Below the pieces are notes generated by a model. That model did not search any database. It saw nothing but the letters and a program-made list of their open reading frames with translations, and was not told where the DNA came from. A program made the translations under genes and the position numbers. Positions 3,609-21,025 of a stretch of DNA of 23,873 nucleotides are shown one piece after another (within the stretch, counting starts at the first letter, position 1; every line of letters begins with the position of its first letter). The DNA comes from a virus: the IMG/VR virus record IMGVR_UViG_3300035034_003473, positions 1 through 23,873 of that record. One strand, written 5' to 3'.

Positions 3609-4322
3609 ATGAAAATTAAGCCCATATTATTTAGCACCCCAATGGTGCAAGCTATTCTTAACGGCTCGAAAACGCAGACTAGGAGAACGCAAGGTCTTGA
3701 AAAATTTAATACAAATCCGGATTGGTTTATTTATGAATGCAAATCAAGTCATAAACAATCTAATGGCTCTTATACGCATTACATGGAGCATTGCGATGTT
3801 CGAGGGAATCCATTAGGAAAGTATTCTACTGTTGAGTCCAAAATTAAAACAGGAGATATCCTTTGGGTGCGAGAAACATTCGCAGAATACAGTAAAGAAA
3901 TTACCGATGCAACCTATGTATATAAAGCAGATGTAGATAAAAATATGCAAGAAGTTTTTGAAGTGTATAAACATAATAAACTAGTCTCTAATTGGAAACC
4001 GTCCATCTTTATGCCTAAAAAAGCCTGCCGAATTTTTCTAGAAGTAGCTGATATACGTTTAGAGAGATTGCAAAACATTAGCGAAGAAGATGCACGTGAT
4101 GAAGGTGCATCTCAAGGGATAAAAATAGATGATTTTGTAAAGCTAGTTAATGCAAGTTCTAAATTAACAAAGCAATCTGCATTAAACCCTATGAGTACTT
4201 ACAAACTAGGATTTATGAAAATTTGGGCTGATATTTATGGCTTAGATAACTGGCAATCCAACCCATGGGTATGGGTGTACACCTCCAAAAAATGCGACAA
4301 ACCTCAAAACTTCTTACAATGA
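3609..4322 (+). CDS. ASCH-like phage protein
   Basis: A 237-residue protein opening with IKPILFSTPMVQAILNGSKTQTRR, the signature of phage ASCH-superfamily proteins. Later motifs are GDILWVRETFAE (about 78-89), WKPSIFMPKKACRIFLEV and ERLQNISEEDARDEG (about 155-170), and the C-terminal NPWVWVY. The ASCH fold resembles PUA and is thought to bind RNA or modified nucleotides; the job in phages is unknown. It is the first gene after the terminator at 3564-3587. Its TGA overlaps the ATG of a truncated ORF (4319-4354), showing that a coupled gene once followed. The family call is by motif recognition. Confidence 0.75.
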   Translation: MKIKPILFSTPMVQAILNGSKTQTRRTQGLEKFNTNPDWFIYECKSSHKQSNGSYTHYMEHCDVRGNPLGKYSTVESKIKTGDILWVRETFAEYSKEITDATYVYKADVDKNMQEVFEVYKHNKLVSNWKPSIFMPKKACRIFLEVADIRLERLQNISEEDARDEGASQGIKIDDFVKLVNASSKLTKQSALNPMSTYKLGFMKIWADIYGLDNWQSNPWVWVYTSKKCDKPQNFLQ

Positions 4323-4354
4323 AAATCTACATAGCAGGAAAAGTATATGACTAG
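4319..4354 (+). pseudogene. Remnant of a DUF4406-like gene start
   Basis: Coupled by an ATGA overlap to the preceding gene, this frame reads MKIYIAGKVYD and then stops. The first nine residues match the usual N-terminus of DUF4406/nucleoside-deoxyribosyltransferase-like phage proteins (MKIYIAGK...). Everything after it is missing, and the helicase paralogue begins 31 bp downstream. It looks like a deletion or replacement scar. The alternative is a chance 11-codon ORF. Confidence 0.45.
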
Positions 4355-4385: not shown

Positions 4386-5540
4386 ATGAATTTACAAGAC
4401 GTAATAAAAGAAGCTAAAAGCAAATTTGAAGACCGTATATGTTTGGAAGGAAACTATCAATGGAATGGAAATTCCTTAGATTATAATAAACTAAAAAGCT
4501 TCATATTAGAATCTGCTCAACCAGGAAAAGAAATCTTAAATTTAGGTTGGCAAAAAGAAGGCTTCTGGGTTTGGATCAATGAAGTTTGCACTACCTCTGG
4601 AAGAAAGATTAAGATTGATGATTATGGTTTTTTTAAAATAAAAAACACTTCATACTTTGTGCCTAGCGCATTAAAAAAACCTCTAAATGCTTATAAATAC
4701 CAAAAACAAATTGCCTGTGTTTCCAAAAATGCATCTATAGATTTTAATTTCCTTACTCATACAGTGAAGCAAGTACACGGTGAGCAGGCTATTATTGGAG
4801 TGTTTTTTGCAATAGCTTCCATATTTCAAGATGTAGTTGAGAAACAACTTTATTTTTTTCCGCATTTATACTTGTATGGTCAAGATGCAACTGGAAAAAG
4901 TTCGCTTTCAAATTTATTAACCTCTTTTTTTGGAGAATGTAGACCTGCTTATGAAGGAGGCACAACCAATCAAGATTTGTTAATTATAAAAGACAACGAG
5001 ACTATTAACGGAATAAATTCTTTTCAAGATTGCTTACCTGCGAACAAAAACTTAGAAACCTTTTTTAATAGAGGTTTTCGTAGGGTTGGTTTTTACAACG
5101 AAAGATTAAATACTTATGGTAAGTCAAATTCGTCTTGCATTGTAATAAGCAGACACTTACTTTCTTCTGAAATAATATCTAAATCTATTTTGTTAGAGAT
5201 GTATAACAATAATAACGATGAAGGTTTCATACAGCTAAAAGAGCTTGCAAAAAAGACCCTCACAGAACACACCAATTACTTTTTAACCAAACGAGATAAA
5301 GTAGAATCACAGTTTTTAGAAAAATATCATTCATTTAAAGATTCTTTAATTTCAAATTCTTTAATAACTGACAATAGAATAATTTCAAATTATGCCGTTC
5401 TAGCCGCCATTTATGACATTGTTGTATTTGAAGATCATAACCTGCCTGTTTTTGATGTACTAGGCATTATGACCAGAGCGGCAAACAATCAAACTTCTAA
5501 ATTAAATATGGTTTTTTTTAACGAAAAAATGAAAAAGTAA
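4386..5540 (+). CDS. Stand-alone P-loop ATPase, paralogue of the phage helicase domain
   Basis: A 384-residue protein colinear with residues about 580-930 of the primase-helicase at 6662-9976. Shared landmarks are GNYQW near the N-terminus, LGWQ.EGFWVW, the HG..GI.G..FA..SIFQD..V segment before the ATPase motif, and the Walker A LYGQDATGKSS (K171, S172) against LYGPASSGKDQ in the large protein. It lacks the primase part and the C-terminal extension. At the place of R835 in the large protein (ALITRLIW) it has K266 (EIISKSIL), possibly a lost arginine finger. It may form mixed rings with the helicase, load it, or regulate it. It overlaps the next gene by one base (TAATG) and follows the DUF4406 scar. 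Confidence 0.75.
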   Translation: MNLQDVIKEAKSKFEDRICLEGNYQWNGNSLDYNKLKSFILESAQPGKEILNLGWQKEGFWVWINEVCTTSGRKIKIDDYGFFKIKNTSYFVPSALKKPLNAYKYQKQIACVSKNASIDFNFLTHTVKQVHGEQAIIGVFFAIASIFQDVVEKQLYFFPHLYLYGQDATGKSSLSNLLTSFFGECRPAYEGGTTNQDLLIIKDNETINGINSFQDCLPANKNLETFFNRGFRRVGFYNERLNTYGKSNSSCIVISRHLLSSEIISKSILLEMYNNNNDEGFIQLKELAKKTLTEHTNYFLTKRDKVESQFLEKYHSFKDSLISNSLITDNRIISNYAVLAAIYDIVVFEDHNLPVFDVLGIMTRAANNQTSKLNMVFFNEKMKK

Positions 5541-5779
5541 TGAGAAACAGACCACACCACCCAAACGGTTACCCAGAATTTGAGGAGCAACCATTAAACC
5601 AAATTCAAAGCATAAGCATAACACTTATTAAAATTGAACTACTGACTATGATTGCTCTATTTGTAAAACTGCTCTACTGGCCAAGCTGTCAAATTCCTTT
5701 TTACTTATTACTTAACCTGTTAGCTATAGCCATTACCTATGTAGTACTAGTATATGGTGGATTAAAGCAAAAAATATAA
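5540..5779 (+). CDS. Small two-helix membrane protein
   Basis: A 79-residue protein with a hydrophilic N-terminus and hydrophobic stretches at about 30-48 (IKIELLTMIALFVKLLYW) and 53-72 (FYLLLNLLAIAITYVVLVY). This predicts two membrane segments. It is translationally coupled to the ATPase gene upstream (TAATG). The function is not recognised. The early position argues against a simple holin; small early membrane proteins of temperate phages are often superinfection-exclusion factors, but nothing here proves that. Confidence 0.65.
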   Translation: MRNRPHHPNGYPEFEEQPLNQIQSISITLIKIELLTMIALFVKLLYWPSCQIPFYLLLNLLAIAITYVVLVYGGLKQKI

Positions 5780-5783
5780 CATC

Positions 5784-6086
5784 ATGATAAAATACAACAA
5801 ATGCAAAACCTGTAAAGAACTGCATTGGAATAATCAAGATTGCGCACCATTGTACCTGGTCTATTTTGAAGAATACTTAGGAGATGAAGCTAAAGAAATT
5901 AGAGCGCATTCCTTTCAAGAAGCGGCAGAAAAATTTGGAGAATATTATAACTCCGTTTCAGATTACGAGCTCATCAATCATTCTATAGAAGTAACTGTAG
6001 AATTTGAAAACGAAACAAGGTACTACAACATTAGTGCAGAACCTGACGTGTATTATACATCCAGAGAAATTGAAAAAACCCATTAA
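5784..6086 (+). CDS. Hypothetical early protein with possible N-terminal zinc knuckle
   Basis: A 100-residue acidic protein. The N-terminus has C7-x2-C10 and a further Cys at 20, with a His between (CKTCKELHWNNQDC), suggesting a small metal site. The remainder (FEEYLGDEAKEIRAHSFQEA onward) looks like a compact alpha-beta domain with no motif I know. It starts 4 bp after the membrane protein stop, so it belongs to the same operon. Confidence 0.6.
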   Translation: MIKYNKCKTCKELHWNNQDCAPLYLVYFEEYLGDEAKEIRAHSFQEAAEKFGEYYNSVSDYELINHSIEVTVEFENETRYYNISAEPDVYYTSREIEKTH

Positions 6087-6109: not shown

Positions 6110-6478
6110 ATGCAAAACACAGACAAATTAAGAGAACAACTTTTATCAGGAAAAATAGTTGATATCATTGGGTTTGAAAAAACACAAAAGGTTTATAAAG
6201 AAACCTTAAAAGTATTTCCAAACCACGTTAAAATAAAAGAATCTAAACCTGTTCCAAAATGGATTGAAGCCACAGTCAAGCCAAAGAAGAAAATGCAAGA
6301 CGTGCCATTGTTGCTAATGAAAAGAAACAAACAAAATGCCAATTGGAATTCGGTTAGGCAAGGTCATCTTGGAAATGGTATGTTTTATATTGAAGGAGGA
6401 AGAACCTCTGATGAGTACATCTCACATTATCAACTCTTAGAATTGCCTCATCATGAAAAAATGAAGATACCAGTATAA
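6110..6478 (+). CDS. Hypothetical early protein, weakly DUF551-like
   Basis: A 122-residue protein. The C-terminal half (NWNSVRQGHLGNGMFYIEGG, then ISHYQLLELPHHEK) resembles the end of DUF551-type phage proteins, which close with a HW.pLPepP motif. The resemblance is weak and by eye. The N-terminal half is a basic helical region. It lies in the early operon, 23 bp after the preceding gene. Confidence 0.6.
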   Translation: MQNTDKLREQLLSGKIVDIIGFEKTQKVYKETLKVFPNHVKIKESKPVPKWIEATVKPKKKMQDVPLLLMKRNKQNANWNSVRQGHLGNGMFYIEGGRTSDEYISHYQLLELPHHEKMKIPV

Positions 6479-6504: not shown

Positions 6505-6672
6505 ATGCGAAAAATAAATCAAATTAAGTCAGATATAAACAGAGCCAAGATGCAACTGCAGCAGTTGGAAGATTCGGAACTATTCACCGAAACTGACAAA
6601 CAATCCTTGAAGCCAAAGTATGAAGAGGAAATAAAATCACTAACACTCAAACTCAAAATGTATGCTCATTAA
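6505..6672 (+). CDS. 55-residue helical protein overlapping the primase start
   Basis: An ATG at 6505 opens a frame that ends with TAA at 6670-6672, 11 bp inside the primase-helicase gene (ATG 6662). The product is almost all predicted helix, rich in Lys, Gln, Glu and Leu (KMQLQQLEDSELF, then KYEEEIKSLTLKLKM), and may form a coiled coil. It fills what would otherwise be a 183-bp gap, and the overlap suggests translational coupling to the primase. No family is recognised. Confidence 0.6.
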   Translation: MRKINQIKSDINRAKMQLQQLEDSELFTETDKQSLKPKYEEEIKSLTLKLKMYAH

Positions 6673-18817: not shown

Positions 18818-21025
18818 ATGAAACGATTAGCCAGTACAATTAGTTTTCTGTATGCGCTGCTAGGTATTAGCGCATTACCGAAAGAAGAAGGAAAGCTCGC
18901 CTTTGATGAAGAGCAGAAGCAAAAAATAACAGAAGCCCTTGGAGAAAAGGACTATTCGCTTTTGGTTGCAAGAATAAACAAAGAGCTGAAAAGCGAAGTA
19001 GACAGCAAAGCTGAAAAGGATGCACTTAAAGACCAGATTGCAGCTGCAAGAGCAGAATTCCGTTCTTCTCTAGAAGGTTCTGGATACACAGAAGAAGAGA
19101 TTGCAGAAATGGCAGGCGAAGGTTCTAATTCAGATTTAGGACAACATTCAGCAAAACCAGATTCTGTTGAGCCTAATGCAGCTCTAGATAGTCTAGTTGC
19201 TGATTTTACGGCATACCGCAAAAAAACGGATGCAATGATAAAAAAACTGGTTGAAGAAGAAGAGCCAGATAAACATAAAAATGCTAAAAATATGAATTTA
19301 GGCATAGCACATAGTGCTACTCACTTGTTTGCGCAGAACTCCGCTGTTATGGCGTTTGATGGGCGTAACTGGAACAGAAGAGCAGCCGGTATTTCTAAGA
19401 CGAAAACCGACTGGAATGGCACTGCAGGTAAAGTAAATGTTGAGAAATTAAACGGTGATGTAGATTTATACTTTCGTGAAAATCCTTCAACTATAGATAG
19501 CTTGCATAGAGATATGTTGGAGCTTCCTTCATTTTGGCCAAGACGTATAAATGTATCTGATCAAGTTGCTGACGGTAGAATAGTTTCTGATGAAGTTACT
19601 CAGGTTAGAAAATTGCCTTGGTTAGCAAAAAACAAACAAAAGATTCAGCCAGAAGTACGTAAAGTATTTCCAGTCTCTATTGATGTTGAATGGACAGGAA
19701 ACGACTTACAAAGTTTAGAAGAGTCTTGGTTAAATAGATTTGTAGATAATGGTAGTGGTCCTTACAAGATGGCATTTGTTCAATTCTTAGTTTCAGAGCT
19801 AATGAAGAAAGCTAGAAACGAAGATCGAATTTCTTCTGTAAAAGGGGTACACGTAGAAACTCCAGACAACGCTACCGTTGCAGGAAGATTCATAAACAGA
19901 CAAGATGGTTTGTTGTACCAGTTGTTTAGAGCGGTGTATGCAGATAAAAAAGTAAAAGTTCCTTCTTTAGGCTTACCAACTGCTGAAAACATTGTTGATT
20001 ATGTAGAAGCTACTGTACGTGAAAATCTTACTGAAGAAATCAGAGAGAATACAGACTTAGTTTATTACATGGAGCCTGATCACATCAAGCTTTATAGAAC
20101 ACGTAAAAAAGAGTTGTTTGGAAATTACAAGACCACCACTACCGCAGATTATGACACTATAGAAAATTACACTAACATTAGAATGGTACCATTACATGAT
20201 TTAGCCGGAACAAATGTGCATTTTATCACTTTTGATGATAATATTGAAATCTTAGAGAACCTGCCAAATGAAAAATCTATCTTAACTTTTCAAATGTTAC
20301 GACGTATGATTTATGGTCATGGAGATTATAAATATGGTGTAGGCTTTAAGCATTTAGGTACAGAAGTAGAAGAAGGAGACCCGGATGCTTTTAAGGTGCA
20401 AAGTGTATGGACTAATGGAGTTTTCCCATTTAAGAAAGATTTCTTTATTCCGTTTTTTGACAATGCAACTGGTAAGTTGGTGGTTAAGTACAGTAACTTG
20501 GTTATTCAGTCGGGTTTTGAAACTAACATTACTGCCTTAGACAAAACCAATTTGTTTGAAGGACAGATTGTAAAGATAAAAGGAAATACAAGCGGTGTTA
20601 CTGCTTCCTTGGTACACAATACTACTTTTATCTTGGCAGGTGATGCTAACTTTGATTTATCTAGTGGCGGAACAATTACGCTAGTTGTAGACGCGGCTCT
20701 TAATTTGAAGGAGCTAAGCAGAACTACAGCACCAGCAATTAATGCGGCAGAAATACACGAATTTAGCGGTGCAGTAATAGATGTGAAGGACGGGTTGAAT
20801 CAAGCCTTTAACGGATCAGCTACTACCGTAACTGGTATTGAGAATGGTAACTATAACCAAAAGTTGACCATTACTAACGTAACAGCCCCAACTGCAAATT
20901 TAACGGTAAGCAACGTAGTTGGAAATATAGCAGTAGCATCTAATGCAGTAATTAAGGCGGGAGATGAGTTAGTGCTGATTTTTGTAGATGGCGTGTGGGT
21001 TGAGTATTCTCGAACCATAGCCTAG
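18818..21025 (+). CDS. Major capsid precursor with fused scaffold and C-terminal beta domain
   Basis: A 735-residue protein. Residues about 1-160 are highly charged and helical (EEQKQKITEALGEKDYSLL, then SEVDSKAEKDALKDQIAAAR), like the delta/scaffold domain of HK97-type capsids. Residues about 165-555 form the likely capsid fold, starting near the AAGISKTKTDW segment; cleavage by the upstream protease would fall around 155-185. Residues about 560-735 are Thr/Asn/Val-rich, with a run of beta strands ending VDGVWVEYSRTIA, probably a surface decoration domain. The gene directly follows the S49 protease. A strong terminator follows it at 21033-21068. The capsid call rests on protease linkage, size and architecture. 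Confidence 0.75.
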   Translation: MKRLASTISFLYALLGISALPKEEGKLAFDEEQKQKITEALGEKDYSLLVARINKELKSEVDSKAEKDALKDQIAAARAEFRSSLEGSGYTEEEIAEMAGEGSNSDLGQHSAKPDSVEPNAALDSLVADFTAYRKKTDAMIKKLVEEEEPDKHKNAKNMNLGIAHSATHLFAQNSAVMAFDGRNWNRRAAGISKTKTDWNGTAGKVNVEKLNGDVDLYFRENPSTIDSLHRDMLELPSFWPRRINVSDQVADGRIVSDEVTQVRKLPWLAKNKQKIQPEVRKVFPVSIDVEWTGNDLQSLEESWLNRFVDNGSGPYKMAFVQFLVSELMKKARNEDRISSVKGVHVETPDNATVAGRFINRQDGLLYQLFRAVYADKKVKVPSLGLPTAENIVDYVEATVRENLTEEIRENTDLVYYMEPDHIKLYRTRKKELFGNYKTTTTADYDTIENYTNIRMVPLHDLAGTNVHFITFDDNIEILENLPNEKSILTFQMLRRMIYGHGDYKYGVGFKHLGTEVEEGDPDAFKVQSVWTNGVFPFKKDFFIPFFDNATGKLVVKYSNLVIQSGFETNITALDKTNLFEGQIVKIKGNTSGVTASLVHNTTFILAGDANFDLSSGGTITLVVDAALNLKELSRTTAPAINAAEIHEFSGAVIDVKDGLNQAFNGSATTVTGIENGNYNQKLTITNVTAPTANLTVSNVVGNIAVASNAVIKAGDELVLIFVDGVWVEYSRTIA

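Follow-up and report, generated by a model that had tools for sequence, protein, structure and literature searches.

The window analysed here, the 23,873-nt viral DNA of IMG/VR record IMGVR_UViG_3300035034_003473, comes from a flavobacterial-type phage and encodes two members of one helicase family, the only two found within the record. The smaller gene, P1 (4386..5540, plus strand), starts with ATG and encodes a stand-alone helicase-module paralogue of 384 aa that has lost its hydrolysis residues. The larger gene, P2 (6662..9976, plus strand), lies 1.12 kb downstream and encodes a 1104-aa primase-helicase, in which CHC2, DNAG_N, Toprim and DnaB_bind are found by Pfam, together with an MCM-like helicase. 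BLASTP aligns the two proteins with 118 identities over 379 positions (31%; 176 bits, E 9e-53), with P1 colinear with residues 572-948 of P2 (segment 8342..9529, plus strand). This E-value and the colinearity over 379 aa rule out a chance P-loop similarity, answering the question for which the preliminary description had proposed a pairwise alignment. The alignment likewise bears out its view of P1 as colinear with the helicase half of a primase-helicase encoded 1.1 kb downstream, and the blocks that it named as common to both proteins, LGWQ.EGFWVW, SIFQD and the P-loop, are all seen there. The lack of TOPRIM and CHC2 in P1, also part of that description, agrees with Pfam matches to these families in P2 only; no Pfam family is matched by P1 at E-values up to 1, so P1 contains no primase parts. 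The Pfam model DUF927 matches neither P1 nor P2 at E up to 1, and PHROG 22657 is matched by P1 at 3.8e-35. Judged by sequence, the assignment of P1 as a true paralogue of the P2 helicase module, devoid of primase parts, is firmly supported.

In the nearest relatives, as in contig L014, the genes of this region are ordered as integrase, repressor, 92-aa-type gene, LuxR-type gene, DUF4406 gene, 86-aa gene, 55-aa gene and primase. The DUF4406 gene, intact at the same place in L014 and L020, is reduced in the window to a 12-codon stump (MKIYIAGKVYD*; 4319..4354, plus strand), which forms the left border of a cassette; the stump is separated from the LuxR-type gene by an ASCH-like gene (Pfam E 0.044, below cut-off). 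P1, located between the LuxR-type gene and P2 and on the same strand as P2, is followed by a gene for a 79-aa protein with two hydrophobic segments (5540..5779, plus strand), whose ATG shares one base with the stop codon of P1 (TAATG), and then by genes for proteins of 100 aa (5784..6086, plus strand) and 122 aa (6110..6478, plus strand); relatives of these three proteins were not found in the collections searched. The 55-aa gene (6505..6672, plus strand), syntenic with relatives, marks the right side of the cassette. Because P1 and the relative-less genes lie between the DUF4406 stump and this syntenic gene, P1 is the cargo of a cassette that replaced the DUF4406 gene, and its location is accessory. 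The GC3 of P1 is 0.244, with four other listed genes lower. PADLOC detects no family for P1 or for four neighbouring gene products, a promoter scan gives fewer matches than in shuffled sequences, and Rfam gives no match. Elsewhere in the window, positions 18818-21025 encode a 735-aa protein conserved in relatives (PHROG 21862, of unknown function, 2e-148) beside an S49-type peptidase gene, a neighbourhood that is probably a head protein region.

The AlphaFold2 model of P1, built with 67 aligned rows, has a pLDDT of 89.6 and a pTM of 0.88. Its best match among solved structures is SCCmec Cch 5dgk (Foldseek E 8.9e-9; VIA Z 24.4 over 341 residues, rmsd 3.9 Å), followed by SaPIBov1 Rep 8tch (Z 20.8) and then by MCM proteins (Z about 15). 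The model of the P2 C-terminal half (pLDDT 86.9) reaches Z-scores of 26.2 to Cch 5dgk and 23.4 to 8tch. Predictions of the two proteins, each alone, had been suggested as a check in the preliminary description; both resemble Cch, with the P2 model reaching further C-terminal (Cch coverage 10-556, versus 54-447 for P1). Cch is also found by sequence with the family profile (E 2.2e-12), the family Walker B pairing with the Cch DE, and a fold search of a viral library ranks Flavobacterium phage primases first. On these models, P1 is predicted to adopt the collar and AAA+ core fold of MCM-like helicases of the Cch/SaPI Rep type, and to consist of a collar and an AAA+ motor, lacking both the C-terminal part and the beginning of the N-terminal module. 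The C-terminal part of Cch-type helicases that is missing in P1 is presumably a winged-helix type domain.

Kept and lost residues were read from a 67-row alignment of P1, a stand-alone copy from contig L022 (described below) and 65 full helicase domains. It excludes 7 short fragments and, from an initial 79 domain rows, 12 that were near-duplicates, truncated, divergent or on the minus strand. The columns were given their roles by alignment with Cch and from what is generally known of AAA+ proteins, and these roles are putative to that extent. P1 keeps the LGWQxEGFWVW signature (aa 53-63; 4542..4574, plus strand), whose L, G, W, Q, E, G, F and W columns are conserved in 64-65 of the 65 relatives and are all present in P1. 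Its Walker A motif GQDATGKS (aa 165-172; 4878..4901, plus strand) fits GxxxxGK[S/T], with G165, G170 and K171 shared by all 66 other rows; the Walker A Lys is therefore retained, as had been described. At the Walker B catalytic Glu position, which aligns to the Cch 5dgk DE and is Glu in 65/65 full helicases, P1 carries D215 (5028..5030, plus strand), and the Walker B Asp position is occupied by the non-acidic Q214, leaving no acidic pair with a catalytic Glu. The sensor-1-like position, Asn or Gln in all 65 full helicases, is R256 (5151..5153, plus strand). The putative arginine finger is Arg in 65/65 and corresponds to R835 of P2 (the Arg of ALITR); its partner in P1 is K266 (5181..5183, plus strand) if the alignment takes one gap and S267 if it is ungapped. 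The earlier proposal that R835 is Lys in P1 is thus right in that the Arg is not kept, whereas the Lys itself depends on the one-gap alignment. Further losses are Lys 228 (conserved in 64/65) to Asn, Gly 255 (62/65) to Ser and Gly 291 (63/65) to Thr.

These losses are concentrated in the catalytic half of the protein. Among the 12 C-half columns conserved in at least 90% of rows, P1 departs in 7 and the L022 copy in 6; of the 65 full helicases, 48 have lost none of these columns, 16 have lost one and a single row has lost two. P1 keeps 19 conserved columns and loses 1 in its N-half, versus 5 kept and 7 lost in its C-half (Fisher p 0.0016; p 5e-5 and 0.013 at conservation thresholds of 80% and 95%, respectively). 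Read from the alignment, the pattern is one of catalysis lost and scaffold kept, not of general decay. A lost pore residue (column 238) carries no weight here, since P2 itself has Thr there.

The alignment also reveals an exchange at the Mg site of the helicase family, in which the position following the Walker A Lys and the one preceding the Walker B Glu have swapped residues in part of the tree, turning GK[S/T] with [D]E into GKD with [S/T/A]E. Asp is paired with Ser, Ala or Thr in 31 of the 67 rows, including the window's P2 (SSGKD ... YSEYK), and 35 rows, among them the L022 copy, are of the unexchanged kind, with Ser, Thr or Asn at the first position and Asp, Asn or Glu at the second. P1, with Ser and Gln, is the only row of neither kind. 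Covariation on the tree is supported by only two independent pairs, and independent events are few. No literature on such a Walker exchange was found by title and abstract.

All 50 distinct related viral records or contigs match the large helicase, in full or as a fragment, yet a second stand-alone copy is found in only one of them, G009 (the L022 contig), and is built differently from P1; an extra match, in G004, is a piece of that record's own primase gene, which is broken. The helicase is thus encoded without an intact stand-alone partner in 49 of the 50, and P1 is absent from the nearest relatives, whose P2 is about 57% identical. The bacterial genomes compared (15 of 29 genome loci) all have family matches, one in each of 14 and three, on separate contigs, in G062. 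Two larger samples of 397 and 395 genomes, overlapping at least in G051, contain 9 and 8 genomes with family matches, none of them with a P1-like stand-alone frame; one of these matches, L120, is a stand-alone helicase of full length. Further stand-alone copies sought in viral contigs, phages and plasmids yielded only full primase-helicases, contig-edge fragments, split or stand-alone full-length helicases and weak partial matches, the WQxEGFW pattern search being one that misses copies without that motif. No orthologue of P1 was found in the viral contigs, phages, plasmids and genome samples searched. A conserved P1-P2 pair is ruled out by these counts, with a second copy in 1/50 viral records and no P1-like frame among the matches in the genome samples, and the two-version system implied by the preliminary description is accordingly not a conserved one. 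A reading of P1 as an obligatory partner fails by the refuting condition set there, one gene occurring without the other in relatives, because relatives carry the large gene without the small one.

The stand-alone ATPase of L022 (IMGVR 3300045790_002527; L022 564-1553, 329 aa) lies between a 120-aa gene and the primase gene. Its sister phage L033, 90% identical in nucleotide sequence over 4.15 kb, has no copy, and there a homologous 117-aa gene abuts the primase gene. Similar to P1, the L022 copy is divergent, stands alone beside a primase-helicase, has Asp at the Walker B Glu position (215) and has lost sensor 1 (Cys). Unlike P1, it is without the LGWQ signature, keeps Arg 266 and the canonical Walker A Thr and Walker B Asp, and has another insertion point. 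It gives a weak PADLOC match to AbiLi (E 7e-4). The primase-helicase frame of L022 (1558-4812) contains one in-frame stop between its primase and helicase parts; that of L033 is uninterrupted (1084 aa). Family helicases of full length that stand alone, without a fused primase, occur in L120 (1126-3003, minus strand, 625 aa) and L089 (9626-11554, 642 aa). Both resemble P1 in having a helicase module with no primase domains in the same gene and differ from it in length; L089 is moreover among the 65 rows that all keep the Glu, the Asn/Gln and the Arg, and these motifs look intact by eye in L120. No second helicase copy was found in either record.

A very long branch leads to P1, 4.07 and 4.19 changes per site in two trees, and its placement is therefore unsure. 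In the 67-row tree P1 branches from an open fork and is not part of the starred 14-row clade containing P2; in a 41-row tree without the L022 copy it groups with the phages of the window's own group, inside a 13-row clade that also holds P2, L015 and L020. The set made up of P1 and these three is unstarred at 64/77, and P1 and P2 as a sole pair are not rejected in that tree (p-AU 0.447). P1 appears to be a fast-diverged copy, and the trees neither support nor reject its origin from the window's own lineage or from a recent duplication of P2. Random-drift simulations down to 32% identity kept an open frame in 0 of 200 runs, whereas P1 is intact over 384 codons; given this open frame and the clustering of its losses in the catalytic half, P1 is unlikely to be a decaying gene.

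In an AAA+ ring, a subunit supplies its own ATP site with Walker A, Walker B and sensor 1, and its arginine finger serves the ATP site of the adjacent subunit. The anatomy of P1, which is well supported, retains the collar and the ATP-binding loop and lacks the residues needed to hydrolyse ATP or to stimulate an adjacent subunit, and from it we infer a function. Because the own-site and neighbour contributions are both lost and the nucleotide loop and collar are kept, an ATP-binding, hydrolysis-impaired subunit is favoured. We tentatively propose that P1 is an accessory subunit of this kind that docks on P2-type rings and tunes or blocks them, as an optional brake or an anti-rival weapon and not as an essential loader. 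P1 would still bind nucleotide and would dock at the subunit interface of P2-type rings, its own phage's or a rival's. Each inserted P1 would break both ATP sites that it touches, so a ring containing it would be slowed, capped or poisoned, and P1 would serve either to restrain replication when present or to attack related phages. In favour of this reading, the L022 copy has likewise lost the Walker B Glu and sensor 1 and is missing from L033, and P1 itself lies in a replaced cassette. The ATPase of P1 may be slow and not dead, since Glu to Asp and Arg to Lys are conservative changes and some P-loop NTPases use a lysine finger (PMC6310460). The earlier suggestion of a mixed ring, a regulator or a loader is thereby narrowed: losing the hydrolysis residues agrees with a regulator or a mixed ring, whereas an essential loader is hard to reconcile with P1-less relatives. 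Counting against a brake or poison subunit, P1 lies on the same strand as P2 and between the LuxR-type gene and P2, as expected of a helper; the failure to find an orthologue in the searched collections and the unsure tree placement also speak against it.

That location would suit an assembly or loading factor, a paralogous AAA+ subunit that opens, seeds or origin-caps the P2 ring in the way modelled by DnaC and DnaB, and the retained Walker A and the Cch-like fold are consistent with such a role. However, 49/50 related viral records do without an intact partner, so that loading seems not to need P1, and PMC7581432 describes self-loading for staphylococcal Rep helicases, which share this fold; we consider a loader unlikely, and an obligatory one is disfavoured because P1 sits in a replaced cassette absent from the closest relatives. 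The long branch, the lost catalytic residues, the lack of detected orthologues and the low GC3 (though lower still in four other listed genes) could instead mark a remnant, a former primase-helicase or a duplicate that has lost its flanking domains and is disappearing. The open frame that no drift run reproduced, the 19/20 conserved columns of the N-half with losses in the catalytic half, the confident predicted fold and the one-base overlap with the next gene make this distinctly improbable.

The residues that replace the catalytic ones bear on whether P1 is an active ATPase of unusual design, with a lysine finger and Asp at the Glu position, acting on a DNA substrate of its own, for example in recombination or repair. 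A carboxylate and a cation are kept at two of the three lost positions and Walker A is intact, yet Arg at sensor 1, Q214 at the Walker B Asp position and the missing C-terminal part render such activity quite improbable. The TAATG overlap, the two hydrophobic segments of the 79-aa protein (5540-5779) and the relative-less cassette in place of the DUF4406 gene raise the further idea of an exclusion or abortive-infection module, in which P1 senses an incoming related helicase and the small protein acts on the membrane. Short gene overlaps are common in phage operons, and PADLOC matches neither P1 nor its neighbours; we regard such a module, with the 79-aa protein as its putative effector, as very improbable.

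Returning to the proposed ring-docking subunit, P1 and the L022 copy are built differently and inserted at different points, which hints at repeated acquisition. It is conceivable, albeit doubtful, that flavobacterial phages repeatedly gain catalytically disabled, free-standing copies of a helicase motor beside their own primase-helicase gene, as poison or brake subunits of MCM-like replicative rings that limit rivals or time replication. If true, a phage-encoded dummy subunit of a replicative helicase ring would offer a simple and testable route to controlling or sabotaging DNA replication. It would also lend itself to finding out with how many dead subunits an MCM-like ring can still cope. 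A search by title and abstract, with most subscription papers outside it, found no literature on a phage dummy helicase-ring subunit, and for dead helicase paralogues in general and archaeal MCM paralogues it likewise turned up nothing that bears directly on P1.

A comparison with known systems places P2 in the same family as the primase-helicases of Flavobacterium phages (23T, 1H, 6H and laban6-1) and PHROG 22657, and P1 matches these phage proteins at 22-31% identity. Function-annotated matches in reference phages are primase, toprim or helicase proteins, and a stand-alone P1 is not seen among them. The best fold matches of both P1 and the P2 C-half, SCCmec Cch 5dgk and SaPIBov1 Rep 8tch, are MCM-like self-loading helicases of mobile elements. 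PMC7581432 describes Cch as a DUF927 protein related to SaPIBov1 Rep, mentions self-loading Rep helicases and states that Cch2, like Cch, forms large multimers. Unlike Cch and SaPIBov1 Rep, P1 lacks the Walker B Glu, the sensor-1 residue and the Arg, and would not be expected to have helicase activity.
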